Origin: Datnioides undecimradiatus | Taxonomy: Eukaryota > Chordata > Actinopteri > Lobotiformes > Datnioididae | DNA length: 64,000 bases | Direction: 5' to 3' | Assembly: GCA_008933995.1 (NCBI GenBank) | Contig: WARS01000071.1 | Location: 5,486,652-5,550,651 of the forward strand | Program-made: the position numbers and the translations under genes | Part shown: piece by piece, positions 4,371 through 53,976 of the stretch | Numbering within the stretch: the stretch's first letter is position 1 | How the letters are laid out: each line of letters opens with the position of its first letter | The notes under the pieces: model-generated | The model's database searches: none | What the model was told of the DNA's origin: nothing | What the model saw: the letters and a program-made list of their open reading frames with translations, nothing else

Positions 4371-16459
<12,089 letters not shown>

Positions 16460-34090: not shown

Positions 34091-37000
34091 ATGCATTTTG
34101 TGATGGCTGTGAGTCATTTTCTGTTCATGACTCTATTTTTGTCAGTGGTCGAAACAAAGTTCTACAGACCATTCCAGTTTAACCAGTATAAAGCTGGGCT
34201 TGGTCAACACCATGACCAAGGGAAACCCACCAGCAGACACAAGTAAGTAATCTCTGTACATCTTTCTTGAGTGCTGGGGATCACTTAAGATGTCAATTTA
34301 TTTGAGTGGCAACATTTTGTATTAGCAAAGCCTACTATAAATCATAATAATCTGTCCCATCTCTTTTCTGTTATCTTGTACCTCCTCTCTGAAAGAAACC
34401 ACTGTGCCTATGTGGTTGAAAAGACAGTGTCCTTCACCGTGCAAGATGGGGCTGCCCCATATGTAAAAGCTGAGTACAACAAGTGCTCCTGGGGTCAGAA
34501 ATGTCCAGCTCTCCTGTGAGTGAAAAAGATCTCTCATGTCACGTTGACATTTATCCCTTGATCTGCCTTAATATAAAAGAAGATTCATTTCACTTCAGGA
34601 TACAAAATACCTCAGTAAAGTGTATGTTTCTGACCAATGGTTGATTGTCCCCCTCAGATATCGTCTGATGTACAAACCATTCTACAAGGTGGCACATAAA
34701 ACTGTCACAGAACTTGAGTGGCGATGCTGTCCTGGGTACTCGGGTTATGGCTGTATGGAGGGACATCCAGTTTACCAACAGCCCATGAAAATGATGCCGC
34801 CTTTCAAGGGTCCACCAATGAAAGGCCCACAGTTTAAGGGCCCACAGCACAAAGGTCCCATGTTCAAGGGTCCTATGTTCAAGGGCCCACCTATTAACAC
34901 CGTTGTGAAGGCAAACCCATGGAGCCAACCCAAAGGACCTCCAACCGGTAGTTTTAACTCTTATCCAATGCGCCACTTTGGGCCTCCCAGGTCCTCCACC
35001 TACCCAGACTCCTCCTTTGAGCCTTATCCCTCTGAGCCTGAGCCAGTGCCAGAGCACCAGGAACCACATCACACAGAGCATGACCAAGAACATCAACATG
35101 AACATGAGCATGGCCAAGGACCTGAGGAACACATACCAGAGGAAATCCCCCTACCTCCCTCTGGTGGTGAACAGCCTGAGGGTGAGACTATAGGTGTGTC
35201 CTTGTTCCAAACTACAAAAGAATTTTATGAGATTTCTCAAAACTCATTATGAATATGTACTGCGCTAATTGACAAAATTGACACTTTTTTCCTCAAAGAA
35301 ATATTGGGCTAAATTTATCTTGAAACTGTTTGAAAAGAAAAGTATGCAATGTTTGTCCCAATGTTAACAGCTTTTCTTTCTCTCTCTAGGCCAGGCTCTA
35401 GACAGTGAGACAGAGGAACGAATATATCGAATGGAGGAGGATGTACAACGTCTAAACCAGGGATTGGAGACCTTGAGAGGAACTGTGAATGGATTGGAGG
35501 ATAGTCTACGAGCCTCACTCAGAGAGGACGCCAATAGGATGTTGTCAGCTCTGCTCTCTGCTGCCCCTGGTCCTATTCCCGCTCCAGCAGTAGCCTCTAG
35601 TACATCCCCTATAGGGTTTGTTGAGATTCCTGGGAGGGATCCTGATACAGAGGGTCTGGATGGTACACATGTATTTCCAAGCCTTACAGAACTGAATGGA
35701 AGGATAGAGGAGCTCAAAACAGAGCTGCAAGCCAAAACAGCAGAGCTGCAGGAACTTAAAGTAACAGTGATGGGACATGATGGAGCACTGAAGAAGATGT
35801 CAACTACAGCAGGAGTGGTGTCGGACTCAAGTGGCAATCTTGAGGGAAATACCGAGAGAGCTGTGGAGAAGATGGTGGATGCCAAGCTGAGTGTAACCAG
35901 GACGGAAATCCTTGATGGGTTTGAGAAGCGTATTGAGAGCGCAGAGGGCCGGTGTGAGGAAAAAGCAGGTGATGTACATCGTCAGTGCCAAAGGGAGCAA
36001 AGTGAGCGGCAGGAGCAGATGGAAGACGATCTGGAGGAAAGTACCACAGACTTGAGAACAGAGCTGAGAAACCTTCAAGCACAACTACATGGTTTAAATG
36101 CAACAGAAAATTGCTGTGGAAGAATGAATGGACTGTTTGAAAGGGTGCAGCAACTGGAAACATCAGTGGCAGGACTTAACCAGTCCCAGGGGCATCTGAA
36201 AGTGGAACTGGGTGGACACAAGGACCACATAGAAGGAATGCTGGAGGGGCGTCTGGGGTACGTAGAAGCCAAGCTTAACCTGACTGGGCAGATTAGTGAT
36301 GACTCTAGGAGAAGAAGTGGCATCCCAACCAAAGCTGAGAAGGGACAGGGCCTGGAGGCGAGAATGGAAGGTAAGTTGAGGGCACTGGAGGGTCGTTTAC
36401 TGACAGCTTTAGAAGAGCTAGGTAACGCCACTGCCCCCGCCCTGCTGGAGGGTCATGCTGTTCCCACTCTGGAGACAGAACTGGAGTCCCTCCGAGGGAG
36501 ACTGGAGGTGGATGTGGACAGAGTGAAAAAGCATCTGAGCAGCCTTGAGATTCTCTGCACCTCTTCCTGTTCCTCACCTAAAAACCCCTCTGCCATTCAA
36601 GGAGACTCTGCTGCACCAAGTGCTAACCTGGCTGAGGAACAGAATATGAAAGAGGTATTGGACATTCAGGATGACCGTTTAAATCGCCTAAATGTCACAC
36701 TGCAGAACATCCTCAGGGGGCTGACCCACAGGGACCAGCAGGAACAAGCAGAAGGAGAATATCCTATCCAGGGAGAGCTCACAATACTCAAGTTCAATGT
36801 CCGCTCAGTCAACCAAACCCTGAGAGGCCTCCAAGATTCCCTTGGGTCAGTGGTCAAACAGGTGGATCAAGCAAACAGCTCCTGGCATGAGAGAGAGGTT
36901 CGTCTGGCCCAGCAGATAAAGGGTGTGGTTCAGCTGGTTGGACATCAGGCTTCCATGCTTGGGACAGGTGAGCGCAGGCTGACCCGACTGAAGGGTGAGC

Positions 37001-37344
37001 TGCAGGAGATGAAGAGGCGGCTAGCTCAGGAAGTCCAGGGCTGCCGGAGCACAGCTATGGGGGTCCAGAAGGAGGTAACTGAGGTTGGAGGGCGTATTGC
37101 CAATGTGGAGGACAAGTGTAAAGGCCTGAATTACTTGGCAGAGGACCTAGAGAGAATCAGGGAAGAGTTGGAGGGACAATCAAATGGGCTTCTTCTGCAA
37201 GTTAACGGAACTCTCTCTAGCCATGCTCAGCAGCTGTCTGAGCTGAGAGGCGAACTCAGAAACTGCACCTCCAAAGTTGAACAGGTACAGAATTTAGAGC
37301 TGGAGGCGGAGCCAAGGCGAGGCGACACGTTCACTTTGAGTTAG
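34091..37344 (+). CDS. emilin3: EMILIN-3, EMI-domain extracellular glycoprotein, 4 exons, 916 aa
   Basis: Secreted matrix glycoprotein of the elastin-microfibril interface family. Exons 34091-34242, 34396-34515, 34658-35181 and 35390-37344 total 2751 nt with consistent phases. Residues 1 to about 21 form a hydrophobic signal peptide; a second in-frame ATG at 34103 has a better Kozak context. The EMI domain (about 52-123) shows Cys54, 81, 87, 114, 115 and 123 and the WRCCPGYSGYGC signature. Then come six KGP units (140-169), a Pro/His/Glu-rich linker, and a long heptad-rich coiled-coil segment encoded by the single large last exon. That segment includes DGFEKRIESAEGRCEEK and several N-x-S/T sites. 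It stops without a C1q domain, which points to EMILIN3 rather than EMILIN1/2 or multimerins. Human EMILIN3 is about 766 aa; the extra length lies in the linker and coiled coil. The poly(A) signal AATAAA is at 37887-37892. Confidence 0.94.
34803..34892 (+). repeat. emilin3: In-frame tandem repeat coding (F/M)KGP(P/Q/M) pentapeptides in emilin3
   Basis: Six 15-base units encode FKGPP, MKGPQ, FKGPQ, HKGPM, FKGPM, FKGPP (residues 140-169), just after the EMI domain. The repeat is seen directly. Units differ at the nucleotide level, mainly at the first and last codons. Confidence 0.93.
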
Positions 37345-44870: not shown

Positions 44871-45126
44871 GTTGCTCATGGGTGTAGAAATAAGCTACTA
44901 CGTGTGAGTAAACCGTGGCGACTGATTTGGGGGAAGCCCACCTGACATGCATTACTCAGACACGTGATTCATGCATGTAAAGAAGGTGAATAGTTTTAAG
45001 TGTGGAAACAAATCAAAATGACGGGGAGTAAAAAAGTAGCGAGTTCGGATGGATAGAGGGAACAGGGTGGGGAGTGGTACTTTGAGTCATCACTGACACT
45101 CAGAGCTTGCCAGTATTATGCTGATC

Positions 45127-45178
45127 CCTCTCCCGCTCTCTCTCCTCTCTCTCTCTCTCCTCTCTCTCCCTCTCTCTG
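45127..45178. repeat. (CT)n-rich low-complexity tract
   Basis: Imperfect CT run with interspersed CC, pyrimidine-only for about 50 bases. It lies 160-330 bases upstream of the exon-like block at 45340-45505. Confidence 0.9.
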
Positions 45179-45339
45179 GTTGACCTGCCGTCACTGTGGG
45201 CTTTCCATTCTACATCAGCAGGGCTCAATGCATCTGCACAATGATGATGAGTGCATATGCTGTATGGGAGGGTTTGTGCGTGTCCACCTGGCTTGTTGCG
45301 TGCAAGTGTGTGTGTCACTGAAGAGGAGGAGAACACCTT

Positions 45340-45505
45340 AACCGGACTCTTCAGTGTGAGCCTGAAACAGATCCAGGTCCACTCCTCTGTCTGTGTCTCT
45401 GTCTTGTCTCCCCGTCGGTGGCTGGCCAAGCTCCTCTCCTCTGTGTCCCGCTCTCCACCTGGCCTCCATGAGTTTAACTGAGGACAAGCAATTCCTCCCT
45501 GAAAG
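45340..45505 (+). other. Candidate untranslated first exon (strong splice donor)
   Basis: A relatively GC-rich block ends in CCTGAAAG followed by GTAAGC, a near-consensus donor at 45506. It carries a short frame, ATG at 45469 reading MSLTEDKQFLPE. The opsin ATG at 51895 directly follows a TTTTAG acceptor-like sequence. Splicing these two would make this a 5' UTR exon, because the short frame would be out of phase with the opsin. This is inference; the left edge is a guess, and it may not be an exon at all. Confidence 0.25.
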
Positions 45506-47009
45506 GTAAGCAGCAGAGCGGTGGGGTGTCTTTTCTGCTTCCAGCGCAATACAAAGAGATTGGACAATAACAAAAAGCAGGATCACTGACGATGACGCAC
45601 TTGTTTGATCTTCCAAATTTTGCTGCTATTGTTTTCAGCGTTTGTTGACAATGGATGCTCAGATATGGGAACTGACATGACTCTAAAGAAATATGAATTT
45701 TTGTCATTTTTTTCTTTACTTTCCGTCTGCGCAGTGGGTCCGGCGCTATATTCTGTCTTGCACTGGTTGCTATCTTAAACCTCTCCCTCTAAGATGATAA
45801 CATCTGGCTGTGTTAAAGGTTTATTTACTGAAGGACATTTAGTCAAGTTTCAAATACTATCTCAAGGAAGTGAAAACAGATGCAGTGCAGGCTGGTGGGT
45901 ATTGCTGGTGAAATTAAAGCACGGGCATCACAGCCAATTTGTGGGATCTCCTGCAGGATTAGTGATGAGATCACTGATCATCCCTTTATCTTTAAGTCAA
46001 ACTTGTAGTTGTCACCATATTGTCTATTTTCAAGACATGCCGTCGTGCTCAGGCTGCACATTACCCTTTCCGGATATGTTTACCTGCATGCGTGAACTGC
46101 ATTGTTTCTCCCTACACTGACATGTATGAGTGACGATTCATTTGTTGTGACTTCTCATTCTATCCTTGCAACAGAGAATCAATATGTGTTGACAGTGACC
46201 GATTATGATGCCGCAGCATGATGGCTGCCTGTTGGATACAACATGATATAACAAAGTGAATGACCTTCAGCTGGGGATCAGAGTCAAAGGCAAATAACAA
46301 ATGAAACCAGCTGTTTGGGGCAGGACATTTACCCATCACTGACACAGAAATGTTTGCTTTGCAGTACTCAATCAGACCATGTGTTATGTAATATGTTTGT
46401 GCCATGAAGGCGAAGCAGTGGTGGTGGAGTGATGATGACTTACTAGGGTGGCAGAACTGCACTTATTTATTTATTTTGTATTTTTCTTGGCTGCTGTCCT
46501 TCCCGTAGGCGTCAGGATACTCAAGAGTTTTAAAGCCTGATTAACATTATGGATACTTTAGAGAATCATATATTATGCACTCTAGTTGTTCATTGTGCAC
46601 CAAAGTGTGAAAATATCCCAACTTGGCTTAAAGACAAATCGCCAGCGTCTCTGTTGTTTGCACAAGACCTTTCATGAGTAATTGTGTCCGTACCAATCGG
46701 ATGATAAGAGTCTCCGCTCTCTGCCACCACTGCCCTAAGATCAAATCCTCCCTATATCTCTCCTTCTTTAGTTTCCTTGCTCTTCTTACCGGCTGAAAAA
46801 AAACAAAAACAAAGGAAAAACAGAGAAAAATCAATCTGCAATTACAAATAGACTTAAATCCCCCTCTCAGGATCAACATTGATTTTGCAAAATGTTTATT
46901 TGCAGGGAAATTGTAGAGAAATTTAACTGGCTGTTAAATTCAGGTCTCACATGCTAATGAGCGCTGTGTGAGAAGAACAAAAAACACATAAATGAGCTTT
47001 TAGCAGGCT

Positions 47010-51894: not shown

Positions 51895-53976
51895 ATGGGA
51901 AATGCTTCGGACACATCTGCCGTGTTTGTCTCCTCCGTGTCTAAGGAGCACGACATCTTCATGGGTTCGCTCTACAGTGCATTCTGTGAGTACGCACAAC
52001 AAACGAATGTCCTGCGTGACAAATCCCCACAGGTGCACAATCACTGGCTCAGCTCTGTCTCTCGTTTGCGTGTGTCTTTTTAGGTATACTGTCCCTCATG
52101 GGCAACTGCATCCTGCTACTTGTTGCATACCACAAGCGGTCGACCTTGAAGCCCGCCGAGTTCTTCATCATCAATCTCTCCATCAGTGACCTTGGGATGA
52201 CGCTCTCTTTATTCCCGTTGGCAATACCATCATCTTTTTCACACAGGTGTCTCGTGTTCCCCTCTTATCTCTCAAATGTATTTCTCCAATCTTGAGAAAC
52301 ATCTAATTAATATCTCTGTGAAAAATTAACTGACTGTAGATTGCAGTGACTGGCAGTAATGTGCAGCCAATCTCATCATGAATTAATGATTTAATTGTTG
52401 TTTTTCCCAGCAAAAGATCATTCACTGGTTCTAGTTTCTCAGATATCACACTCTCCTCCTTGATAGCAGCCTGTTTTATAGCTTTGTGATCTGAATATCT
52501 TGGGTTTCTTGACTACTGACCGCTGTCCTGACATTCTATAGACTAAATGAGGAAACAATTAGTCAAGACAACGATCAGCAGATTCATTAATAAAGACTAT
52601 AATTGTTCATTTTAACCCCTGTCTCACATTTCCTGTTTCTTCGTGCCTGTGTAGGTGGCTGTTTGGAGAAATCACCTGTCAGCTCTATGCTATGTGCGGA
52701 GTGCTGTTTGGTCTATGCAGCTTGACCAACCTCACAGCCCTCTCCTTTGTGTGCTGCCTTAAAGTCTGCTTCCCGAACCAGGGTGAGACGATAATAAACT
52801 ATGGCAGCGTGATTTTATCACAAATATGAACAGCGTGATGTCAGAGGGGGGAACGATGACCACAATAACTTTGAATCATAAATCTTTCTCTATCTCCTGT
52901 CTGATCAGGTAACAAGTTCTCCTCGTCACACGCCCGCCTCCTGGTGGTCGGAGTGTGGTGTTATGCATCCGTGTTTGCTGTAGGGCCCTTGGCACAGTGG
53001 GGACATTACGGTCCTGAACCTTACGGCACAGCCTGCTGCATTGACTGGCATGCGCCCAACCACGAGCTTTCGGCTTTGTCTTACATCGTCTGCCTTTTCG
53101 TCTTTTGCTATGCACTGCCCTGCACCATCATCTTCCTCTCCTACACATTCATTCTGCTGACAGTGCGGGGGTCGCGTCAGGCAGTCCAGCAGCATGTGTC
53201 ACCACAGACCAAGACCACTAATGCACACGCGCTCATTGTCAAGGTCAGAGGATTTGATTGTGTCACTTCAGCATCACTGACTTCAGGTTCTGCAGTTGAC
53301 AGGGTTTGAGCAGGAAATGAGTCAGTAATTTATAAAAGATAACGATTATAAAGATTATAAAAATGCATTGCTGATAACTTGCTTAGCTCTGGAGAATCTT
53401 TTCTACACCAACAATGTTTGCTTACACTAAATAAATGTTCTGCATGTTTGTGTGTATTCATGTGCGAATGTCTGCGTGTGTGTGTGTGTGAAGCTGTCGG
53501 TAGCTGTATGTATAGGCTTCCTTGGTGCCTGGAGCCCATACGCTGCCGTGGCTATGTGGGCTGCTTTCGGTGATGCCACGCAGGTCCCTCCTGATGCATT
53601 CGCCCTTGCCGCCATGTTTGCCAAGTCTTCCACCATCTACAACCCTATGGTGTACCTGCTGTGTAAACCCAACTTTCGGGAGTGTCTCTACCGAGACACG
53701 TCTATGTTACGACAGAGGATCTACAGGGGAAGTCCGCAGTCAGACCCAAAAGAGCGCTTCGGATCCACCTCACAGCGCAACAAGGACATGAGCATCTCCA
53801 CGCGCTTCTCGAACGGACAGCAGGAGAGCTACGGGGCCTGTCTGCACTGCACTGACAATGCAGCACCGTGTCATGTGACCACTCCCCAAAGGACAGCCTG
53901 CATCCTGACTGGATCCACCTACAGAGAGGTGACAGTTAGCCGGCTCTCAGCCAAACCGCAGGCTGATTTACTCTAG
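51895..53976 (+). CDS. Non-visual opsin of the OPN5 (neuropsin-like) group, 399 aa
   Basis: Seven-transmembrane photoreceptor predicted to bind retinal. Exons 51895-51985, 52084-52246, 52655-52782, 52909-53243 and 53494-53976 total 1200 nt with consistent phases. Seen directly: TM1 GN (LMGNC); TM2 LSISD; disulfide pair Cys93/Cys170; Tyr96 at the rhodopsin-113 position; Glu164 at the 181 counterion position (PEPYGTAC); TM6 AWSPYA; Lys283 in MFAKSSTIYN as the Schiff-base lysine; and NPMVY 289-293. The best family match is OPN5 (PEPFGTSC, AWIPYA, LAKSAAMYNP in human), but identity is moderate. It is therefore one of the fish OPN5-related classes (opn6/7/8/9), which I cannot separate by eye. Oddity: the D/ERY motif ending TM3 reads VCC (117-119). 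The N-terminus has an N-glycosylation site (NAS). The long tail has several cysteines (CLHC) that could be palmitoylated. The last acceptor follows a TG repeat instead of a normal pyrimidine tract. Confidence 0.95.

Follow-up and report, generated by a model that had tools for sequence, protein, structure and literature searches.

The question raised by this locus, a 64-kb stretch of Datnioides undecimradiatus DNA (hereafter the window, i.e. the whole stretch that was analysed), is how to read a 399-residue opsin, encoded on the + strand at 51895-53976, which lacks the D/ERY motif: as a damaged protein, as a peculiarity of this lineage, or as a trait of the subclass to which it belongs. We suggest that the gene very likely encodes an Opn5L1-type non-visual opsin, that is, a dark-active reverse photoreceptor of the neuropsin/Opn5 group; this assignment is based on diagnostic residues and on one 14-residue peptide match. 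The loss of the DRY motif is a known trait of the Opn5L1 subgroup and not a lesion, since chicken Opn5L1, which carries Val-Cys-Cys (VCC) at the same place, signals and also possesses Cys188. Hence the finding is already known, and the question left by an earlier note on this DNA, whether the loss belongs to the subclass or to the lineage, is answered in the available parts of the published work on Opn5L1. The coding part of the gene consists of five exons followed by a stop codon:

51895..51985, + strand: exon 1, containing the start ATG, a glycosylation-type site (N-A-S) in the N-terminus and the beginning of transmembrane helix (TM) 1; donor gtgagt
52084..52246, + strand: exon 2, TM1-TM2, with Asn38 (1.50) and Asp66 (2.50); acceptor tttttag, donor gtgtct
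52655..52782, + strand: exon 3, TM3, with Cys93 and with Val117-Cys118-Cys119 at the D/ERY site; acceptor gtgtag, donor gtgaga
52909..53243, + strand: exon 4, TM4, extracellular loop 2 (Glu164, Cys170, Cys171), TM5 (Tyr195) and intracellular loop 3 (His234); acceptor gatcag, donor gtcaga
53494..53976, + strand: exon 5, TM6-TM7, with Lys283, NPMVY, the C-terminal tail and the stop codon; acceptor ending in gtgaag

The protein matches the Pfam family 7tm_1 (PF00001) over the entire profile (positions 1-260 of 260, E 5.9e-39), and its best matches among solved structures, retrieved with phmmer, are rhodopsins and Kumopsin1. Residues were numbered on the phmmer alignment to bovine rhodopsin, which is ungapped around the D/ERY site. 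Exon 3, whose boundaries had been placed exactly by the earlier note, reads WLFGEITCQLYAMCGVLFGLCSLTNLTALSFVCCLKVCFPNQ in frame, and V117-C118-C119 pairs with bovine E134-R135-Y136, so that the replacement of D/ERY by Val-Cys-Cys claimed in that note is borne out by the alignment. The motif is found at the aligned place in all five of the listed structure alignments (three near-identical rhodopsin entries, Kumopsin1 and another rhodopsin); we take the three near-identical entries to be squid, Kumopsin1 to be from a jumping spider and the remaining rhodopsin to be bovine. The same numbering agrees with the note on the other hallmarks that it had described as intact: the retinal-binding lysine (Lys283, bovine 296, 7.43), the disulphide cysteines Cys93/Cys170 (110/187), Glu164 (181) and NPxxY, kept as NPMVY (302-306). 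Tyr5.58 and Trp6.48 are also intact and, together with NPxxY, are parts of the activation machinery. Since bovine position 113 is occupied by Tyr96, the vertebrate visual counterion would be gone, with Glu164 as the candidate counterion. Lastly, position 6.30, which is Glu in the bovine, squid and spider rows, is His234 (window 53226-53228); the class A ionic lock thus lacks both its partners (Arg3.50 is replaced by Cys118, Glu6.30 by His234), a double loss which, judged from the residues, suggests a receptor suited to activity in the dark.

The assignment to Opn5L1 is supported by three features, namely VCC at the D/ERY site, Cys171, which adjoins the disulphide Cys170 and corresponds to bovine position 188, and Phe150 at position 167. 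According to the available text of PMC5871776, Cys188 is completely conserved within the Opn5L1 subgroup, and a 2025 review (PMC12579811, in the part at hand) states that it is seldom present in other opsins. Moreover, the window peptide YGPEPYGTACCIDW is identical at 13 of 14 positions to the chicken Opn5L1 peptide YGEEPYGTACCIDW (taken from an excerpt of PMC5871776, minus its engineered final residue), the matches to the window over the same 14 positions being 6/14 for the bovine, 7/14 for the spider and 4/14 for the squid rhodopsin. The two opsins are alike in VCC, Cys188, Phe/Tyr167, Glu181, Lys296 and the peptide surrounding Cys188; a difference lies at position 212, where Phe is reported for Opn5L1 and Tyr is found here. 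The identifying cysteine, Cys171, was overlooked by the earlier note.

Some observations weigh against this assignment. The residues reported for Opn5L1 at 167, 188 and 212 are Phe/Tyr, Cys and Phe (PMC8766551, as excerpted); two of the three fit the window opsin, and at the third the Phe associated with the subgroup is replaced by Tyr195 (window 53109-53111), likewise aromatic. We treat position 212 as associated with Opn5L1 and not as defining its mechanism, because Cys188 alone is enough to confer a photocycle on Opn5m: according to the same excerpt, the T188C substitution gives Opn5m a photocycle and exclusive binding of all-trans-retinal, although neither the rate nor the isomer selectivity is the same. 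The gene also differs in its surroundings from a fish locus described under a related name: one paper equates Opn5L1 with Opn8 (PMC9368030, in the part available), and the Astyanax opn8a and opn8b are tandem four-exon genes located between runx2b and mmut (PMC10983663, likewise), whereas the window gene has five coding exons and lies near uridine-kinase-like and EMILIN-like genes. Finally, by analogy with the chicken protein, the loss of the ionic lock does not on its own make a receptor active, because the chicken Opn5L1 apoprotein is reported to be without detectable activity and its retinal-bound form activates Gi with an efficiency about 100-fold below that of bovine rhodopsin, though about fivefold that of chicken Opn5m (PMC5871776, available part).

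Opn5m belongs to the same opsin group and has Lys296 and the disulphide cysteines in common with the window opsin. Unlike the latter, it keeps DRY in human and mouse (PMC12579811) and has Trp167, Thr188 and Leu212 (PMC8766551); it binds 11-cis-retinal and is an ultraviolet-sensitive, bistable pigment (PMC8766551, as far as the excerpts go). An Opn5m identity was discarded, DRY and Thr188 being replaced here by VCC and Cys171. Opn5L2, also of the Opn5 group, resembles the window opsin in that its chicken form activates G protein without a normal E/DRY motif (PMC3279408); it is unlike it in having IRF in place of VCC and Thr188, and in being ultraviolet-sensitive and bistable (PMC8766551, PMC3279408, both in the parts available). 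It follows from these sources that two chicken Opn5 paralogues, Opn5L1 and Opn5L2, depart from DRY and still signal. Opn5L2 was likewise rejected as the identity of the gene, given that the chicken IRF and Thr188 stand against VCC and Cys171.

More generally, the gene might represent another Opn5-like subgroup (Opn5L2, opn6, opn7 or opn9), sharing the motif through common ancestry or convergence. The unsettled naming schemes lend themselves to this idea, the opn8 locus being different even though Opn5L1 has been equated with Opn8, and so does Tyr at position 212; furthermore, a zebrafish opsin of the reverse type, Opn7b, likewise signals through Gi/o in the dark, its sequence homology with chicken Opn5L1 being about 42% (PMC8302595). 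However, VCC, Cys188 and the peptide match together point to Opn5L1, Cys188 is rare in other opsins, and the Opn5L2 residues differ as described above, so that we regard such an origin as unlikely. The literature searched yielded no published triplet for a fish Opn5L1; in the full-text search TACCVDW and VCCLKVC were not found, and TACCIDW appeared only in PMC5871776. No relative of the opsin was confirmed among the pattern matches, which numbered 1 in viral contigs and 30 in prokaryote genome contigs.

If DRY had been lost by decay, the gene might be a pseudogene with a lesion specific to its lineage, and the motif loss, taken alone, favours this. The structure of the gene argues in the opposite direction: the spliced frame is open across 399 codons (the other two frames of the spliced sequence contain 11 and 13 stops), the four introns, of 98, 408, 126 and 250 bases, are all GT-AG, and the remaining hallmarks are intact. 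Besides, VCC is also present in the functional chicken Opn5L1 (PMC12579811, in part). We therefore consider decay extremely unlikely; the pseudogene was dismissed because both the frame and the splice sites are intact, and the gene is, as judged from its sequence, very probably functional. An in-frame TAG stands directly 5' of the start codon, in a context that is also acceptor-like (ttttag|ATG), and because of this context an untranslated 5' exon may be spliced on at the ATG. The acceptor of exon 5 (window 53475-53493) consists of a TG-repeat tract ending in gtgaag, unlike the usual pyrimidine tract.

The earlier note had also considered that another exon 3 might supply DRY, and this was checked both in the window and in the introns. 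When the opsin protein was compared by tblastn with the whole window (matches listed to E 10), the five exons were recovered, each with E 1e-39 or better, and no second exon 3 was found, all the non-exon matches having E 0.17 or more. The three weak matches that overlap VCC (E between 3.4 and 5.9) contain no DRY, and neither DRY nor ERY occurs in the four opsin introns translated in the three forward frames; the sole match to a deliberately loose pattern in the introns was DRC, in a short stop-to-stop run of intron 2. An alternative exon 3 carrying DRY was thus rejected, none having come up in the tblastn search of the window or the three-frame translation of the four introns.

As for function, Opn5L1 proteins show characteristic changes of the DRY motif, and the chicken one, with VCC, still activates G protein (PMC12579811, available portion). 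Chicken Opn5L1 binds all-trans-retinal, activates Gi in the dark, is deactivated by light and recovers thermally; after light absorption Cys188 forms a covalent adduct with the retinal, which makes the pigment self-regenerating (PMC5871776, in the text at hand). The constructs used had exchanged termini, and are called indistinguishable from native by the authors, who report Opn5L1 from cartilaginous fish to sauropsids (same excerpt). By analogy with the chicken protein, the apoprotein of the window opsin would take up all-trans-retinal directly, and the resulting pigment would be active in the dark, driving Gi without the DRY arginine. Under green light the retinal would isomerise to 11-cis and the receptor would be turned off; the addition of Cys171 (188), probably to C11 of the retinal, would then allow rotation, and the active all-trans state would slowly be restored by thermal reversion. 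The opsin described here can hence be regarded as neither broken nor silent, since it fits a described reverse photoreceptor which pairs VCC with Cys188.

A role as a photoisomerase-like or non-signalling opsin, which the earlier note had put forward, would be in keeping with the missing Arg3.50 and with the binding of all-trans-retinal by Opn5L1, as by mammalian RGR (PMC12579811, excerpt). This role appears very improbable, given that chicken Opn5L1 with the identical VCC activates Gi in the dark (PMC5871776, PMC12579811, in part), that Cys188 traps its 11-cis product, which then reverts thermally (PMC5871776, in part), and that the activation-machinery residues of the window opsin are intact. 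Of the guesses in that note, the one of an altered behaviour is right; a new transducer or a lack of signalling need not be invoked, given the dark Gi activity and light deactivation of the chicken protein, and a pure photoisomerase fits poorly.

Within the Opn5L1 assignment, it is possible, even if rather doubtful, that the protein has drifted beyond the chicken type in its pocket (Tyr212, next to the retinal) and in its switch (Cys3.50, His6.30), and that it differs in the speed of its photocycle, in its colour or in a basal activity independent of retinal; if this were true, it would represent a natural test of class A signalling without the DRY arginine. As an Opn5L1-type opsin, the gene adds a further likely orthologue in which Gi activation without Arg3.50 and the tuning of the photocycle by position 212 can be studied.

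Concerning the neighbouring genes, the Pfam scan covered 20 of the 281 open frames in the window that are at least 60 codons long, and pieces of runx2b or mmut might lie in the other 261. Among the 20 scanned frames, those above the curated cut-off were the UPRTase/uridine-kinase pieces (- strand) and an EMI-domain piece (+ strand):

5077-5825 and 9274-9642, - strand: fragments of a gene resembling uridine-cytidine kinase, with UPRTase twice (E 3.4e-13 and 4.5e-09) and PRK/uridine kinase (E 2.1e-24)
34572-35249 and 35368-37341, + strand: the last part of an EMI domain (E 3.8e-11), then a 658-codon open frame

The former are presumably UCKL1-like, and we take the EMI piece and the long frame to belong to an EMILIN-like extracellular matrix gene; the 658-codon frame has only sub-threshold Pfam matches and is coiled-coil in look. 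No RNA family reached the gathering threshold in the window. A low-complexity, Glu/Arg-rich frame at 45103-45582 (- strand) has a sub-threshold match to RecA_dep_nuc (24.9 bits, with a cut-off of 26.9), which is probably due to chance.
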